Of a stretch of 64,000 nt of DNA, positions 2,652 to 14,247 are shown piece by piece. The position numbers and the translations under genes are program-made. The DNA is from Mayamaea pseudoterrestris. Lineage: Eukaryota > Bacillariophyta > Bacillariophyceae > Sellaphorales > Sellaphoraceae. How positions within the stretch are numbered: the stretch's first letter is position 1; each line of letters opens with the position of its first letter. The stretch lies in NCBI GenBank assembly GCA_027923505.1, contig BROI01000021.1:124001-188000 (forward strand). The letters are read 5' to 3'. The notes under the pieces were generated by a model. That model was not told where the DNA came from. It ran no database searches and saw nothing but the letters and a program-made list of their open reading frames with translations.

Positions 2652-5600
2652 ATGACTTTAGCGTATAATATTATCAGACACAGTATCGAAGACGTCGTGA
2701 TCTTTCAGCCGACGCACATTGCGCCTTCCTGTCGCGCCGCTGTCACTTGTGCGGTGCCGTTTGCGCACCCGGACGCCAACGACCTTTTGGTGTCATCGGG
2801 CGCTCGTCGCGGAGCGTTTAAACTTGCGGACGTCTACTCCATCATGGCGTCGAGCGCTACTGCTCTTTTTGTAGGGTTCAAAAGATGCTTTGTTCAGGAT
2901 AGGATGAACATTGCTGGTGGAGACGGAGATTTGGAAATATCAGTTGTCTTGTTGGAGAATGGTGAGTTTGCAGCAAGCGAGTGCCCTGGAGGGAGTCACT
3001 GCGTCACTTGCGATCAACGACCGCCGTACTCACACTAGCTCCAATAATTCCATATATGCAGGAGAGTTTACGGAGGCGTGTCCGGAATTGCGGGAGAAGG
3101 TTCAGGAGGGTGAGTCGCAACATCCGTCGGTGCGAGTGCATGACTTGGAACGAGTCGTCGCTGCACGATTGCTTGAAAGAGCTGCAAGCTAATTACACAC
3201 CGTATCATAATGCCTTCTCACCTTTGAAACTCTTCTTGTTAATCTTTATCAGAGATTTGGCCGCAGGAGTTGCACCGCTCAGGATTGGCGAAATCCAAGA
3301 AACGTGTGATTGGCGACGAGGCGCATGCCTGGGCCCTTTCGGTTGAGCATGGTTCCCAAGGAAAGTCGGCGAACTTTCGATCGGTTACAGGATTGAAGGA
3401 TGCCTTGAAACCATCGCCTACTGCCGGTGCAGTGGTCGAGAAGCGGCCTGTCGTTGTGGAGGCTTTTGGATGCGGATTGGAGGTTTTTGGCATGGAATCG
3501 GGATTGGCGGAACGAGCGGAAGCGTCACCTAAACAAGGCGCGTCATCGTATCAAGCGACCGCGTCTTGCAAGCGTTGGTGGGCTGATTATGATTGGGAGT
3601 TGCACCAAGCTGCATTGAAAGCAGAAAGAGAGGGCAAGGAGTTTGACGAAGACGCGTTTGAAACAGCTTTTGACCGTCTTGCCGCAAGTGGCTACGACTT
3701 GAGCCTCCCAACTGCCGGCTCAATGATCGAGATGGAGATGGCCTCAATGATTGCTTCTTTTGGGTGTGATTCGGTGGTTTCTCGCGAGGGTTTGGAATTT
3801 AAGGAACTCTCTGATGCATCTCGTGCTGTTGCAGCAGTGGATGAGATGCGTACTGCCTCGGCGGACGCTTGTTCTGGATGCAAGTCGATGGTCTTTGGCG
3901 CTGGTTCGGGTTTGAAGAAACCCTTGGATGCTCCTTCTATTGTTGTCACAGTGGTTGAGATGCGGACTGCTTCGGCGGAGGCTTGTTCTGGATGCGAGTC
4001 GATGTTCTTGGGTGCTGGCTCGGGGTCCCAAGAACCCCTGGATGAGCCTCCTGCTGTTATAGCTGTTGGTGAAACATATGTTTCGGCGGATGCTTGTTCT
4101 GGATGCAAGTCGGTGGTCTGTAGCGCCGGTTCGGGGTTGCGGGAACCCCTGGATGAGCCTCTTGCTGTTGCGGCAGTGGGCGAGATGCGTAATGCCTCGG
4201 CGGAGCCACGTTCTGGATGCGAGTCGGTGGTCCTTGGCGCTGGTTCGGGGTTGCAGAAACGCTTATATGCATATCCTGGTGTTGCAGGTACGATGCGGAA
4301 TGCCTCGGCGGTGGCTTGTTCCGAAAGCGAGTCAGCGGGCAATGGCATGGGTTCGGGAGTGGAGGAACCCCAGAATGCATCGTCTCATGTCGAAGCTGTC
4401 ATTGAGCTGCAGAGAGCATCGATCAAAGCACTTTTTGCTGCAAAATTGGTGGTACCTCACAAAACATCGAAATTGGAGGCATTCAAGAATGTATCGACAG
4501 CCAAGGCAGTGGTTATGATGGAGCCTGTCTCGGTCAAGTCAAATTTTGCGGCAGAGTCAGTCGGCTTAGGCAAGGCTTTGAATTTGGGAAAACCATTGGC
4601 TGCATCATCTATTGCCAACGCAGTGGTGACAGTGGACCGTTTCTCGATTGAGTCATGTAATGCGGCAGTGTCGGACGTTTTTGGCAAGGATGCTGAGTTG
4701 GGGGAATCCTTGAACGCATCTCCTACTGTCAGCACATTGATCGAGATGCAGGCGACCTCTGTGGAAAGTACGGTGTCGGTGTCCGAGGCGGTCGACTTTG
4801 GTGCGGATTTGGAGTTAGGGAAACCCGTAGGGGTCGTGACGTGGGCGGCTTCTGTTGATAGAAAAGTGTTGGCGTCGGTGGCAATAGACTTTGGCGCGCC
4901 AAAGGGCCTAGAGGAACCAAAGATTGCATCATCTGTTGGCGCTGTAGTTGAGATGTTTGTTGCATCGGGAAAGCCCATGCATGCCCCAGCGTTGACGTCA
5001 AGAGCAGTAGACTTTGGCGCGCCTACAGGTCCAGACGAACAAATGGTTGCATCGCGTCTTGTCGGCAATGTGGCTGAGTCGGTGGCGACTGAGGCGTCGA
5101 GAGACCTGCGGAAGTGCAAAGATCTGGAATTCTTGTCTCTTGAATTGGACTTCAAAAAGGGTGTGTTGCGCGTACTCAAAGCTGCGGACGCCAAGGGCGA
5201 CTTGTCCCCGTGGGACCGGAACCATTGGCGACTCAAGTGCTTGGAGCGCGAAGTGGCGTTGCTGGCAGTGTATCATGAGTGTGTTCTCAAAAAGGCCGAG
5301 TTGGAAGTACTAACAGCTGCGGACGCCATGGGCGACTTGCCCCCGTGGGATTGGTACCGCTGGCGACTGACGTGCTTAAAGCGCGAAGTGATGTTGCTGA
5401 CATTGCAACTCCAGGCGGAACCCCGTTTGCTGGATGCTTCTCAACCAATATTGGCTTTAAAAGAGTCGGTCGTCTTGACGGCGTCCAAAGCTGCAGCAAC
5501 GGCAGCAGTGGTGGAGGATGCGGCAGAGACGAAGGCAAAGACTTCTGCATACGCGACACATAAGAACGACATCTATCTGACTGATACGCACTGTGCGAAG

Positions 5601-8096
5601 AAAGTCAACGAGGCGAAGCGCTGTTCCGTATGGATTGTAATTGCCATCGTCATGGGTATCGTTGGCTGGGGATGGCTGTTTGGATCGATGAGGAAGGCGA
5701 AATTGACGCAACAATCTGCTTTTCTCATGCAACATTTAACAGAAACTAGCTCACATTTTGATCGGGATGACAGCAAGGCACTTTCTGTATGGAAACCATG
5801 GACCGCATGTGATCGGCACAAGCCTATGCCATTTGACGGATCGTATGGCGACAGCTTGATCGACATTATCTACTCGGCTACCAATTGCGACTTTGGTGGC
5901 GGTAATGCCTGTCGTTCATTGCCGTATGAGAATGAAACGGTCATAGCGCTGGAAGATACTTCTGGGCAGGAAATTGATGGCGATCGGGCATGGATGGCGG
6001 TAACTTTCAATTTTATTGAAAACACGGGGATACGGCTTGTGACAGTTGACATTCATTGCACAGTTAAGGGAGTAGCAAGCATGGGCGCTGCGGATGTATC
6101 AATTAACGAGTACCCGATCATCTTTACAAGCTACCTCCTAAGTCTCGAGAATGTGACGCTCAGCCAAGGAATTCACTACACTGGGCAGCCGACCATTACT
6201 GTTGGATTTGGAGAAGGCCGGTTCAGCCTCACCGCTGTTTGCGAGTCGGACGACACGAGCGGTGATGAATCAGTCGCACTTTCGCTCTGGAATTCCAATG
6301 CCTCGTCCAACGACGGTTGCTTCTCTAAGGGAGCTTGCTTACGTAATTTTGCAGGTAATGCATCAATTGACGGTTGCTTTTGGGACGGAGCTTGCCCAGA
6401 TGGTTTTGTAGAAAGTGCTTCGATTGACGGTTCCATTTCCGACGGAGCTTGCGCCGATAGCATTCCAGGCAGTGCTTCCAATGGCGGGTACTCTTCAGAC
6501 GGAGCTTGCTCAGATGTTTTTGCAGGTAATGCTTCGATTGACGGTTGCTTTTTGAACGGAGCTCGCATGGATGGTTTTGCGGATAGTGTAATTGCTGCTG
6601 GCGAAAGCAAGGTTACCGCCTTTCCAGTTGCTGCTTACTTGGAAAAAGTTTCTCTGGATGGTGCAAGCTATGGCAAGGTTTATGCCGATTTCGTTGACAG
6701 GTTCCGGTATGGCGCTCGCTGGGACGATGATACTACAGTTGCTGCAGCTGCCTTGAGCAATATCAGTATCTATACGGCTTTGCAGCAAGAGGCCGCAATC
6801 GAATGGTCCAGTTCCATCAGGTCGACTGGCGGAAACTCTACGGGCGGTGCAATTACAATAGGCGACGGCAGTGCTGATGCTTATTTCTTTGGAAATTTGC
6901 AGCATGGCGCTCGGTGGGATGTTGGCACTATAGCAGCAAGCAATGTCAGTACCTTATCGGCCTTGGAGCAAGAGGCCGCAAGTGAGTGGTGCAGTGTCAT
7001 AAAGTCGGATGGCACGAGAAATATTTCGTTGGACGCTGTAGATTTCGAGGTTTTCTTTGATTACAAGAAGATTGTGTCAACAGGTGAAGTAATCGTCGAC
7101 ATTGACTGCAACTTTGGCCCGGGGGTGACCGAATTCAATTCAGTTTCGTTCAAAAGCAACTCGGTGTCGCTGGCGGATGTCATGCTTGGAGATACATATG
7201 AGGCGGAGCAAGTACTTTTTACAGTGGCCTTTGACAGTGGACTGTCCAGCGTGACAGTTGTTTGCTCACGCCGTCCAGGCGCCGCTTCCGATCTTGCAAG
7301 CAAGTGGGAAAACGGCACACTTGCAGGAATGATCATTGACGTTGATCCCTTCGCATCGCTTTTCGATCCCAGCACTGCGCTCCATGATTGTCGAGGTGCA
7401 TGTGAGGTTTCGGGCCAAGAAGTTGATCGAGTAACTGCGTCTCTGTTCCGCCATGTACTGACTGTTTTGGTGGCCGTTACAGTGTATGTCGTTGGAAAGC
7501 GCGGTCGGCGACGGCGTCAGCTTCTATGGCAGCGACGCCTAGATTATGCTCGTCAAGTAGCCGTGGTTGAGGTCATTCCTGATGACTGTCAAGCAGCTGT
7601 CGTTGAGGACATTCCTGATGATAGTCGAGCAGCCGTCGTTGAGGACGTTCTAATGCGGCCATTGCCTGCCAAAGTCAAGGGGATATTGCGGAAACCGGGG
7701 ATCAAGTATGGTCCACATGGTCGTCGAGTTAAATTTACCGAAAAAGTAGCGGTCCGTGCCTTCGACATCACGGTTGGGTTGAGGCAGGTTGAGGCTTTGT
7801 CAACTGATTACCGAGGGATTCATTTCGTTGCACGCTCGAAGCATCCGTTCTATCCTCTAGGGCTTGATTGGACTTTTGTGGATGAGCAGGTGGATATGGG
7901 GGCCTTCGGTCAGAAGTGCACCAGGTATGATCAACGCGGGTTTCGACTTCACTGTCCCGCCGATCGGCTTCGCCGTCTCGTTGGCTCGGGTGGTTTCACT
8001 CTAGAAGAGTTAAAGCGAATGGATGCGGATGCGCGGGTGATGCATTACGACCAAATGGATGCCTTGGTCTTGGCTCTGTCAATCGGCAACGACTAG
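2652..8096 (+). CDS. Giant repeat-rich two-pass membrane protein with PP1-docking C-terminal tail (orphan)
   Basis: No family recognised for the whole protein. Inferred exons are 2652-2961, 3062-3109 and 3253-8096 (introns 100 and 143 bp, GTGAGT donors, phase 1 joins that keep frame), giving about 1,733 aa. In order: an N-terminal globular part; degenerate repeats of about 38 residues (core ASAxACSGCxSxxxGAGSGL, then PLD) at 3720-5090; two repeats of about 48 residues with AADAxGDLxPWD; membrane helix 1 near residue 909 (WIVIAIVMGIVGWGWLF); and two similar beta-rich, N-glycosylation-rich segments. Between these lie short ASIDGCFxxGAC repeats and a duplicated GARWD-containing unit. Membrane helix 2 lies near residue 1518 (HVLTVLVAVTVYVV), followed by a basic stop-transfer KRGRRRRQ and three VVExxPDD repeats. 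A tail then contains GILR and RVKFTEKVAV. With both termini cytosolic, the tail could recruit protein phosphatase 1. The exon joins are inference; the long exon is a single open frame. Confidence 0.62.
3720..5090 (+). repeat. In-frame coding minisatellite, about 114-bp (38-codon) degenerate units
   Basis: The coding sequence repeats at about 114 bp with in-frame units. Three to five central copies (3837-4330) are the most alike, each with TCxGCGGAxGCTTGTTCTGG-like cores and a downstream GGTTCGGG element; outer copies are eroded. The repeats encode the ACSGC...GAGSGL...EPLD pattern. They also leave long antisense open frames that are not genes. Confidence 0.75.
7680..7760 (+). other. Predicted PP1-docking block (SILK + RVxF + hydrophobic motif) in the orphan protein
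   Basis: Codons 7680-7691 read GILR, matching the SILK consensus [GS]IL[KR]. Codons 7725-7736 read RVKF, matching RVxF, followed by TEKVAV, a hydrophobic pair at the spacing used by PP1 regulators. In known PP1 partners the SILK motif lies N-terminal to RVxF, as here. The VKFTEKVAV string resembles the PPP1R15 (GADD34/CReP) core VRFSEKVTV. The sequence match is visible; binding is inferred. Confidence 0.6.
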
Positions 8097-8129: not shown

Positions 8130-8560
8130 CGGTGATTCGTGTTGCGGGGAGACGGAGGCATGCGGCAAACAGAGATGGGCGGAGGTAAGTGTGGGAAGAG
8201 AGACGGAGACTTGCGGCGAGACAGATGTGCATAGAGAGGTGGCATGATTGGTAAGGCGGAGATTCATGGAGCGGAGAGACGAAGGCATGCGGCAAACAGA
8301 GATGGGCAGAGGTAAGTGTGGGAAGAGAGACGGAGACTTGCGGCGAGACAGATGTGCATCGAGAGGTGGCATGATTGGTAAGGCGGAGATTCAGGGAGCG
8401 GAGAGACGGAGGCTTGCGGCAAGATAGAGATGGGCAGAGATAGGTGTGGGAAGAGGGACTGAGACTTGCGGCGAGACAGATGTACGTAGAGACGTGGCAT
8501 GACCGGTAAAGCGGAGATTCATGGAGCGGAGAGACGAAGACTTGCAGCTAGACGGATATG
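8130..8560. repeat. Tandem repeat, 127-bp unit, about 3.3 copies
   Basis: The string TTGCGGCGAGACAGATGT occurs at 8211, 8338 and 8465, exactly 127 bp apart. The flanking GCGGAGATTCATGGAGCGGA and GGCAAACAGAGATGGGC segments recur at the same period. The last copy is partial. The array is purine-rich on the plus strand and begins within about 40 bp of the stop codon of the orphan gene, so it may form part of its 3' UTR. Confidence 0.9.
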
Positions 8561-10629: not shown

Positions 10630-13600
10630 ATGGCCAAGTCGCGCCGCAACAAGTCTTCTCCTCTAGACGAGGAAGGCGAGCCTCCAAAGCCAGTGAGTTC
10701 CGATAGTGAAGAAGAAGAAATCGATTTTGCAAATGATGTGGATGATAAAGCCACTGCTGCGGATGACTTTTCTGCTACAAGAAAAGCGACTTTATCTCCC
10801 ATGTCGCGCTTATTTGCTCCTTATCGAAGCCTTGGAATTGTTTCTTCGGGGTGTCCATTTGATATATTGTCGCACGAGACAGCCACTATGCTTTGCGTTC
10901 CCATTCAAGATCGCTTCCAGATTCTATCGGAACGTTTGCAACCCGTCATGGTGAGCCAACGAGTTAATCATGGGACGATACGATACTTGGTCGCGGATGC
11001 AACGCTCAGTGTTACTTTGGTGGCACACGGAGCAACGAGAGTGACACTGTTTCATCGCACCATGCCCCTGCAGACGAAATGCGTGCAGGATCAACAGTCG
11101 AGAGGTTGCAGCATTACAAGCTTGCTTCGCTTGGGACGGCTGCAAAAGGAAATGAAGGGGGAAAAGCAAGGCAAGACGGAGAATGCAGTCATTGTTGCTG
11201 CAGTTTTGGCGCGAAGTTTGTTGCCAAAAGATGCGAGCATTCCAGTTGTTGGCGACGATGAGGAGGAGGAGACGGAAGGCGACTTTGAAGAGAAAAATAC
11301 GACGCAGCCCGTTGATTTAAACAGTGTGTGCGGACAAGTCGTCATGATGATTGCTACCCGCGAGGATTTGGCGGTACAAGGACGAATTAATCTCGATTTC
11401 GTGCCCGTAATTGCCGTACATCCTCCCACCTATGTGAACAAAATTGTCGTTGCTGGATACAAGAATGTAACAACAGCTGAAGGAGACAGCGTCAAGCATC
11501 CTGCTATGAATTTAATCAACGTTCGATCCGGCAAAGTTTTATACGTGTTTAATTGCTTGCCTGTTACGAATGATGCGTATGTCACGACCCTGGAAGCGTC
11601 GCCAGCCGTTGATACTCTCGCCGTCGGTACAAGCAGCGGAAAGGTACATTTGATTAATGTACTTCATGACAAACTTTTGTTTACGCTGGATCACAAGTCG
11701 ATTTACAAAGTGCCTGTATCAATTACATCCATTTCGTTTCGAACAGACTCGTCGGCCTTTCAATATGGAATAGCGCCCATGGCGGTTGGTCGGAACGATG
11801 ACATCATAACTATATGGGACTTGACGCCATCCGAAAACCATAGTGGTGCACAAAAAGTGTTGACAGAGCTTGAAAATGTGCATGTTGGCGGAGTCGGTTA
11901 CTTGCAATACCTGCCGCATGAACCACTGCTCGTCTCGATTGGTATACAATCAAATTCGATTGTCATGCACCTCTTTGACAGTCCCAATCATACTGGTCGC
12001 ATCTTGCGGCAACGCAAGGGTCATTCTTCACCACCGAATTTAATTCGTTATCTACATCCCGCCACAGGAGGTCTTACACAGCATGATGGGACGGATGCGT
12101 TGGCTTGCCAAATACTTTCCACAGGTGGCAGTGACCGATCTTTGCGAGTATTTTCAACGGCGCGAACCATTTTGGATAAGGAATATAGCCAAGGTCCTGG
12201 CTTGGAAAAGCGAGCCAGGAAGCTAGGCATAAGGGCGGCGGATATAATGCTCCCTCCTGTCACGGCTTTGGCGGTTTCGGAATCTAATCGACGCGATTGG
12301 GGCGATCTTGTGACTATTCATCGAGATCATCCATTTGCCTACGTTTGGAGCAACACGCGGGGATCACAGTCGGGCCCGCTTTTAAAACAAGCTGGCTGGA
12401 ATATTAGTGCAATGAAGGCTGCGCCGTCGCGTCAGACGCATGCTACTTCAGTCTGCATGTCAGCATGTGGACATTTTGCAATAGTTGGTACTCGCGGCGG
12501 ATTTATTTACAAGTATAATGTTCAAAGTGGACATGCTCGTGGTGCGTATCCTCGTACGATTGAAGTAGACGCAAATGGAAAGAAACAAAAAAGTAGATTA
12601 CCTGGTGACGTTGGCCGAACAATGAAGGCGCTCGAATCAAAGATGAAAATTAGCAATCGGGTATCTAATCTCGACAAGCACGATATTGATGGGCGGAACA
12701 ATGCTGCGTTGGAACAGGCTCGCAGCACGAGGCTTGCCGCTGCATCGCATAAGGGATCTGCAGTCACCGGTCTTGCCGTTGATTCACTGAACAAGTTTCT
12801 TGTCTCCGTCGGAGAGGACAAGAAACTGGTCGTCTGGCACTTTACGACGCATGTCCCTCACTGCAAGAGTCCATTCATCCTGCCGTTTCCTGCTGTAAAA
12901 CTGAAACATGTTCGCGAATCAGATCTCGCAGCAATCGCCTTAAAGGACTATTCTGTCGTGCTATTTGACTGTACTTCACTTTCAATTGTGCGACGCTTTG
13001 GAGCGCAAGGCTATTTCGCTCGTCACGGAGGTCCTGTTACCGATCTTGCCTTCAGTCCGGATGCTCGAACTCTCTACACGGCGTCAATGGATAGATCTAT
13101 ACGTGTGTTCGATGTGCCGACAAATGCATGCATTGACTGGCTTTCTTTTAAGTCGGCTCCGACGTCGTTGACAATTAGCCCAACTGGAGAATATCTGGCG
13201 ACAACACACCATGACAGAGTTGGCATTTGCGTTTGGAGCGATCGAAGCTACTATCAAACGATTCATATGGACTCATTGTACTCTACCGAGCCAGTCAGAA
13301 TGGACGAGCCGACGCCAATGCTCGATAAGAATCGCGCAAACTGTTCCTCGGTAGACGTTAGTTTGTTAGTCGATGCGACGTATGGCCCCAACAAAAATCG
13401 TATGCAAGCTGATGATGGAACAAGACCTTGTTCGAAAAAGGGCGGACTCGTGACTTTCTCCGGGCTACCTCATGCGCATTGGAAGAATATATTCTACTTG
13501 GAGCTTGTTAAGCTGAGAAATAAGCCAAGTGAAGCTCCGAAGAAGCCGCCAACCGCTCCCTTTTTCTTGCAGTGGCGAAACGGTGAGGCTGTCTCCGACG

Positions 13601-14247
13601 CGAAAGATCATAACATGGACGCGGCGAAAGAGGAAACATTTGGAACGGACAATAACGACGACTGGGCGAAGGCGTGGTCCGATGAAGAATATGGTCAGGA
13701 GACGTTACCATGTAGTAATGGACTCGATTCAAAGCGAAATATGTCACAAGTAGATATTGAAGATGCAACAGGAGCCAAACGACACAAGATCTTTCATGTC
13801 AGATCGCAACTAGCGTCGCTGCTCACAGAGACAGCAGCGTCTTCGGGAAGTCAACGACGTTACCAACATGTTACAGAGCACATTGCTACACTCGGTCCAT
13901 CGGCCATTGATGTTGCCCTCGCCTCGTTATGCAATGGCTTCCATGATTTAAATTTCGGGTTACCTTTATTGCGGAGCGCTGCTGCGTGGCTCATCGAGGC
14001 GCTGTTAACGGGCGAGCGCTTTGAAGCTGTCAATGCGTACCTTCATCGATTCTTGTTTCTCCATGCTGCTGTCATTGCTGGGCTAGAAATTCTCGATGCG
14101 GCAGATGAGCGTCACATGGAAGATCGTCGGCATTTGATGGAAGCAATCACGCAGCTTCGACGAGCGCAGGAGAAGGCTTCGCATGCTTTAAACAACAAGA
14201 TGCAGCATGGACTTTGTCTACTACGACATTTCTCGCGTATGGTGTAA
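10630..14247 (+). CDS. UTP21: U3 snoRNP / small-subunit processome WD40 protein UTP21 (WDR36)
   Basis: UTP21 is a subunit of the UTP-B complex of the nucleolar 90S pre-ribosome, needed for early 18S rRNA processing. The single-exon 1,205-aa ORF has an acidic N-terminus. It then has the diagnostic opening RLFAPYRSLGIVSSGCPF, two consecutive WD40 propellers (for example IITIWDLTPSE, AVTGLAVDSLNKFLVSVGED, VTDLAFSPDARTLYTASMD) and a C-terminal Utp21 helical domain. That domain contains GPSAIDVALASLCNG and an AYLHRFLFLHA helix just before the end. Length is somewhat above the usual 900-950 aa because of acidic and linker insertions. The ATG at 10630 is followed immediately by a basic MAKSRRNKSS stretch. 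The gene ends only 30 bp from the stop codon of the converging gene on the other strand. Confidence 0.92.
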   Translation: MAKSRRNKSSPLDEEGEPPKPVSSDSEEEEIDFANDVDDKATAADDFSATRKATLSPMSRLFAPYRSLGIVSSGCPFDILSHETATMLCVPIQDRFQILSERLQPVMVSQRVNHGTIRYLVADATLSVTLVAHGATRVTLFHRTMPLQTKCVQDQQSRGCSITSLLRLGRLQKEMKGEKQGKTENAVIVAAVLARSLLPKDASIPVVGDDEEEETEGDFEEKNTTQPVDLNSVCGQVVMMIATREDLAVQGRINLDFVPVIAVHPPTYVNKIVVAGYKNVTTAEGDSVKHPAMNLINVRSGKVLYVFNCLPVTNDAYVTTLEASPAVDTLAVGTSSGKVHLINVLHDKLLFTLDHKSIYKVPVSITSISFRTDSSAFQYGIAPMAVGRNDDIITIWDLTPSENHSGAQKVLTELENVHVGGVGYLQYLPHEPLLVSIGIQSNSIVMHLFDSPNHTGRILRQRKGHSSPPNLIRYLHPATGGLTQHDGTDALACQILSTGGSDRSLRVFSTARTILDKEYSQGPGLEKRARKLGIRAADIMLPPVTALAVSESNRRDWGDLVTIHRDHPFAYVWSNTRGSQSGPLLKQAGWNISAMKAAPSRQTHATSVCMSACGHFAIVGTRGGFIYKYNVQSGHARGAYPRTIEVDANGKKQKSRLPGDVGRTMKALESKMKISNRVSNLDKHDIDGRNNAALEQARSTRLAAASHKGSAVTGLAVDSLNKFLVSVGEDKKLVVWHFTTHVPHCKSPFILPFPAVKLKHVRESDLAAIALKDYSVVLFDCTSLSIVRRFGAQGYFARHGGPVTDLAFSPDARTLYTASMDRSIRVFDVPTNACIDWLSFKSAPTSLTISPTGEYLATTHHDRVGICVWSDRSYYQTIHMDSLYSTEPVRMDEPTPMLDKNRANCSSVDVSLLVDATYGPNKNRMQADDGTRPCSKKGGLVTFSGLPHAHWKNIFYLELVKLRNKPSEAPKKPPTAPFFLQWRNGEAVSDAKDHNMDAAKEETFGTDNNDDWAKAWSDEEYGQETLPCSNGLDSKRNMSQVDIEDATGAKRHKIFHVRSQLASLLTETAASSGSQRRYQHVTEHIATLGPSAIDVALASLCNGFHDLNFGLPLLRSAAAWLIEALLTGERFEAVNAYLHRFLFLHAAVIAGLEILDAADERHMEDRRHLMEAITQLRRAQEKASHALNNKMQHGLCLLRHFSRMV

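Follow-up and report, generated by a model that had tools for sequence, protein, structure and literature searches.

A probable PP1-docking module in the tail of a two-pass membrane protein of the diatom Mayamaea pseudoterrestris

The specificity of protein phosphatase 1 (PP1) comes from its partners. In a stretch of 64,000 nucleotides from the diatom Mayamaea pseudoterrestris (hereafter the window), one gene encodes a large membrane protein whose C-terminal tail carries a SILK-type motif followed by an RVxF motif. Does this tail dock PP1, or do two short motifs merely look familiar? From the sequence comparisons below, we consider it probable that this two-pass membrane protein carries a PP1-docking module in its tail.

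The gene model is our own proposal and not an annotation. The frame is open over 3270-8096, and the in-frame removal of two short introns, checked at the splice joints, gives a protein of 1733 amino acids (table 1). A hydropathy scan predicts two membrane helices and places the second at about 7437-7493, so the motif-bearing segment does follow the second helix, as the initial annotation stated. The two predicted helices, the strongly basic stretch behind the second and the location of 10 of the 15 NxS/T sites between them point to a cytosolic tail by the positive-inside rule. By eye, WDWxRxRLxxLERE-type repeats occur in the N-terminal region (5134-5403; two 135-nt copies) and also in the N-terminal half of a paralogue, L009. 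Between the helices (5685-7436, and in L006-L009) the eye also picks out a unit of roughly 85 residues, perhaps a beta fold, that has two conserved cysteines and ends like VGFGDGRFSVTVVC. The window protein and L009 have two copies each.

Table 1. Features of the membrane-protein gene, by position in the window.
Feature	Position	Strand	Basis
Gene for 1733-aa membrane protein	2652..8096	+	Proposed exons 2652-2961, 3062-3109, 3253-8096; proposed start codon
Tandem repeats of ~38 aa, N-terminal, predicted cytosolic	3731..4333	+	Repeat search, families D1/D5
Predicted membrane helix 1	~5628..5684	+	Kyte-Doolittle hydropathy scan
Predicted lumenal/extracellular segment	5685..7436	+	Predicted orientation; 10/15 of the protein's NxS/T sites
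19-aa repeats in predicted lumenal/extracellular segment	6306-6588	+	Repeat search
Predicted membrane helix 2, then GKRGRRRR	7437..7493	+	Kyte-Doolittle scan
Spacer from membrane to docking site, three tandem repeats of 12 aa (36 nt)	7552..7659	+	Repeat search, family D13
SILK-type motif GILR, context VKGILRKPG	7680..7691	+	Sequence read
RVxF motif RVKF	7725..7736	+	Sequence read; RVxF-type core in 5/5 paralogues
TEKVAVR; +6/+7 after F = V-R, PhiPhi position by GADD34 comparison	7737..7757	+	V-R invariant 5/5
Remainder of module core, AFDITVG ... YPLGLDW	7758..7871	+	TVG, LGLDW invariant 5/5; hhalign to wider module
C-terminal helices, model residues 172-181, 187-192, 195-216	7956..8090	+	AlphaFold2, block pLDDT 70-88

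All the motif elements first reported for the tail are present: GILR, then RVKF 15 codons on (start to start, with a linker of 11 residues), then TEKVAV. In addition, V-R follows RVKF at the spacing at which Val564-His565, the PhiPhi residues of GADD34, follow KVRF 555-558 (PMC10743859); the second PhiPhi residue of the window tail is Arg, a point against docking. How much does the bare pair mean? We searched shuffled sequences for [GS]IL[KR] followed 4-40 residues later by [KR]x0-1[VI]x[FW]. The pair turned up in 77 of 20,000 shuffled versions of the complete window protein and in 19 of 20,000 of the tail alone. At 77 in 20,000, the pair is expected by chance many times across a proteome. As a bare pair, GILR and RVKF are thus weak evidence, and it is homology that makes the case stronger.

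The protein had been described as an orphan, which it is not. A six-frame search of the 30.6-Mb genome finds four paralogous places that share its tail (E 1e-16 to 4e-15). All lie at the ends of open frames whose parts are ordered as in the window protein: a VTVVC module, a hydrophobic stretch, GKR..RRR, a spacer and the tail. G-K-R and R-R-R are invariant in all five sequences. The hydropathy threshold for the stretch before the tail is passed by the window protein and P0002 (L008), and is not reached in P0037 (L009) and P0003 (L007). The five cores read RVKF, RVHF, HIHF, HVHF and CVHW. In each, an arginine stands one or two positions ahead of the V or I; V-R at +6/+7, TVG and LGLDW are invariant throughout. 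In L009, GILK precedes RVHF, one residue closer to the core than GILR is in the window tail. SILK is absent from the other three tails, where the spacers are repeat-rich. None of the four paralogues loses both motifs, an outcome that would have counted against docking. The dN/dS of the tails is 0.15-0.50 in eight of ten pairs, several of them near saturation, and the other two pairs are saturated; these values carry no significance test. Two database searches for orthologues of this branch in other genera matched nothing but three proteins of Mayamaea itself and one of a fish (E 0.2). As these searches missed the window's own protein, and one of them also its query's own gene, absence elsewhere is weak evidence.

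The tail also resembles something more widespread. An unannotated module, VxFxxVxVREYxxxLGDNPxxxxGxPLxLDW, is found at about 23 other loci of the genome. With the module consensus as the query, 30 places match at E up to 1 and 25 at E up to 0.01, the latter counted as 23 loci after two pairs of neighbouring exons were merged; three real module proteins as queries give 20, 19 and 22 places, largely the same set. Neither the consensus nor the three proteins retrieve the membrane tails in the genome search. An hhalign comparison of the five tails with 17 module members does join them (probability 98.1, E 8e-14 as a single comparison, 85 columns), pairing RVxF with VxF, TVG with TIG and PLGLDW with PITLDW. 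By this profile comparison, at 98%, the membrane tails are a divergent branch of the wider module, and this comparison is what places them there. They differ from the module in having a longer stretch where it has GDNP. In what follows, 28 cores are counted: 23 module places and the five membrane tails. Seven of the 30 places (L011, L023, L025, L027, L035, L037 and L039) had no core in frame and were left out; L036 and L038 had E 0.105 and 0.226 in the consensus search. Alignments A5 and A3 hold 17 and 12 of the 30 places, and A4 holds all 28 cores.

Strict [GS]IL[KR] occurs within 80 residues upstream in six of 28 cores (0.12 expected from shuffling the upstream stretches; none of 20,000 shuffles reaches six), a test prompted by the window case, without which the count is 5/27. 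The carriers are the window protein, L009, L015, L020, L021 and L022; since L020, L021 and L022 are related, as are the window protein and L009, they amount to about three independent cases. Within 80 residues downstream, none of the 28 cores has SILK in strict or relaxed form. The relaxed form, chosen after the sequences had been seen, lies upstream in 12 of 28 (0.67 expected). Upstream stretches run from the last stop codon, and some may include untranslated codons. The RVxF expression fits 21 of the 28 cores, including all five membrane tails; the basic residue is missing in the other seven. Variant SILK-like motifs (GCLK, SCLR, SVLK, SICK, GIMK and PCLK) were seen upstream in L012, L014, L018, L030, L031 and L036, a hint that diatoms may be less strict about the central residues of SILK.

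A protein database, searched with alignment A3, adds 31 relatives, two of which (P0005 and P0006) are Mayamaea's own, and 28 have a recognised core. The core expression missed P0008, P0011 and P0030; in two of these, SILK-like motifs can be seen by eye. A SILK-like motif lies at most 60 residues before the core in 21 of 28 relatives by the relaxed form (16 of 28 by the strict form), counts that are neither independent nor a random sample since most relatives are similar to L015, which heads the query alignment and itself carries SILK. Among the seven without it, P0006, P0031 and P0033-P0035 keep RVxF alone. The motif starts 15-46 residues before the core, with a linker of variable length. A linker that varies in length and sequence between motifs that are mostly kept is what one expects of motifs that dock into two pockets on a single surface.

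Does what holds for the module hold for the membrane tails? One could suppose that the module docks PP1 elsewhere and that the tails of this branch have drifted, no longer dock effectively and serve another purpose. Drift would suit a branch that is divergent, found only in Mayamaea, without SILK in three of five members and without similarity at the core to human CSRNP2, yet the RVxF-type core and V-R are retained in five of five tails although these are only 36-38% identical to the window tail, GILR/GILK keeps nearly the same spacing in two of them, and the computed dN/dS is below 1. We therefore think such a loss unlikely and keep to docking by the tails themselves.

The mean AlphaFold2 pLDDT is 65.4 for the window tail (modelled from alignment A7, with 15 of the 31 relatives) and 64.4 for relative P0012; of the other alignments, A6 omits P0029 and P0030, and A8 omits P0024 as well. 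RVKF (model residues 95-98) has no secondary structure at a pLDDT of about 62, a low confidence that makes it weak evidence either way, and residues 101-164 fall below 50. In the P0012 model, SILK and RVxF are also without secondary structure, at a pLDDT mostly below 50. Confident burial of RVKF inside a fold would have spoken against docking; these low-confidence predictions do not show it. The last 120 residues, thought at first to contain a compact region, do not come out as one in the prediction, and they are helical with fair confidence only over about the last 45.

Is a suitable PP1 present? A STPPase_N search of the genome finds three places, and one of them, L045, encodes a near-canonical PP1 (E about 1e-181 against animal PP1). 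In two alignments it equals animal PP1 over LELEAP, DEKIF, HDLDL, YEFF, RQLV and DETLMCSF. These stretches hold the residues of the SILK and RVxF pockets. Glu54, Glu56, Asp166, Glu167, Asp242 and Glu287 are among the pocket residues and are given in two papers (PMC10066265, PMC4999541).

Among known PP1 partners, inhibitor-2 and inhibitor-3 are soluble inhibitors, and they are not known to have the module that follows RVxF in the window tail. Regulators of this type carry SILK N-terminal to RVxF across a flexible linker, as described in the same two papers (PMC10066265, PMC4999541), and the window tail has the same order.

The nearest outside resemblance, weak and confined to some members of the wider module, is to the CSRNPs, which are nuclear proteins with a cysteine-rich region. 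In human CSRNP2, SILK starts 13 residues before VRF. CSRNP3 reportedly binds PP1-alpha via RVxF and inhibits it (PMC11260172), and CSRNP2 is also PPP1R72 (PMC6482147). CSRNP_N (PF16019) is the only Pfam family touched by more than one member of our set: five of 28 match at E 10 or better, the strongest with 8.2e-6, one of 29 in a further scan (E 0.02), and the window protein is not listed at E up to 1. CSRNPs and the wider module share a core VRFxxVTVxxF and then a glycine, and differ in what follows (G..LGM in CSRNP, G.PLTLDW in the module). Against human CSRNP2, the wider module without L034 gives E 6e-4 and a probability of 29%, aligned at the RVxF core; with L034 and the membrane tails, the values are 4e-5 and 69%. 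The membrane tails alone showed no match at the core. The window tail, with three cysteines, shows no cysteine-rich region of the kind that follows CSRNP_N. In the genome search L034 scores 31.6 for CSRNP_N, over the cut-off of 27 (neighbouring matches included), and in a single-frame scan 21.6. By BLASTP it matches human CSRNP2 weakly at the core (E 8e-4, a single comparison) and insignificantly in the cysteine region. L034/L041 is a candidate diatom CSRNP, and a common ancestry of the module with CSRNP is a lead that these comparisons suggest. The L034/L041 locus (G000:C25:423804-424052 and onwards) has a cysteine-rich stretch, CSRNP-like by eye.

An alternative that does without PP1 is that the module is a small domain binding another partner, with RVxF and SILK only coincidentally alike. 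The module has many conserved positions outside the motifs, and no Pfam family scores over its cut-off in the tabulated module proteins; among solved structures, the candidates were a designed protein for the tail (E 0.013) and a best match of E 0.67 for the family profile, neither accepted as a relative. These points would suit such a domain. Against it stand the SILK excess upstream only, a linker that varies between motifs that are mostly kept, and the resemblance to CSRNP_N, whose family is reported to have a PP1-binding member (PMC11260172). A partner other than PP1 thus seems to us decidedly improbable.

The initial annotation went further and proposed a functional analogue of GADD34/CReP. 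Its PP1-docking part gains good, if indirect, support from the core in five of five tails, the upstream SILK excess, the unstructured (low-confidence) stretches and the PP1 of the genome; its GADD34/CReP part is not supported, the likeness lying in the short RVxF-PhiPhi core only. The PPP1R15 family PF10488 is not listed in the Pfam scan for the window protein or the 28 family members, and its one match in the genome (E 0.99, below cut-off, in a search that matches none of 14 control genomes and so lacks a positive control) gives nothing convincing for PPP1R15/GADD34 membership. Both proteins are membrane-associated, whereas the window protein adds SILK and two predicted membrane helices; GADD34 uses an N-terminal amphipathic helix, and SILK goes unmentioned in the review that describes this (PMC10743859). 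An ER-membrane eIF2-alpha phosphatase subunit is most improbable, since beyond V-R placed as Val564-His565 and the membrane anchorage nothing was seen that points to the ER or links the window protein to eIF2 or actin.

How would a PP1-docking tail work? On PP1, GILR would occupy the SILK pocket, RVKF would occupy the RVxF pocket and V-R would lie at the PhiPhi site, and the membrane protein would hold PP1 at the cytosolic face of an internal or the plasma membrane. There the remaining parts of the module, with the large region at the N-terminus, may steer or restrain the enzyme. Targeting is slightly favoured over inhibition, since one docking core is combined, from paralogue to paralogue, with spacers and cytosolic regions that differ.

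A broader proposal, on which we are evenly divided, is that PP1 has in diatoms a large and so far undescribed set of partners (about 28 genes in this genome), all built on one SILK-RVxF-PhiPhi module that may share ancestry with animal CSRNP. In Mayamaea, one branch would then have passed to two-pass membrane proteins whose extracellular or lumenal domains are rich in repeats, which would put PP1 under receptor-like control. In the part of the open-licence literature that was covered, we found no mention of such PP1 partners in diatoms. Should the module dock PP1, over twenty unnamed genes of this diatom would at once have a testable function, and the membrane branch would offer a new means of placing PP1 at a membrane. 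A confirmed kinship with CSRNP would push the origin of that animal family much further back.

Immediately after the gene come three tandem copies of about 127 nt (8130-8511), with short repeats on to about 9459. Further on, an open frame at 10630-14247 (1205 aa) matches Utp21/WDR36.
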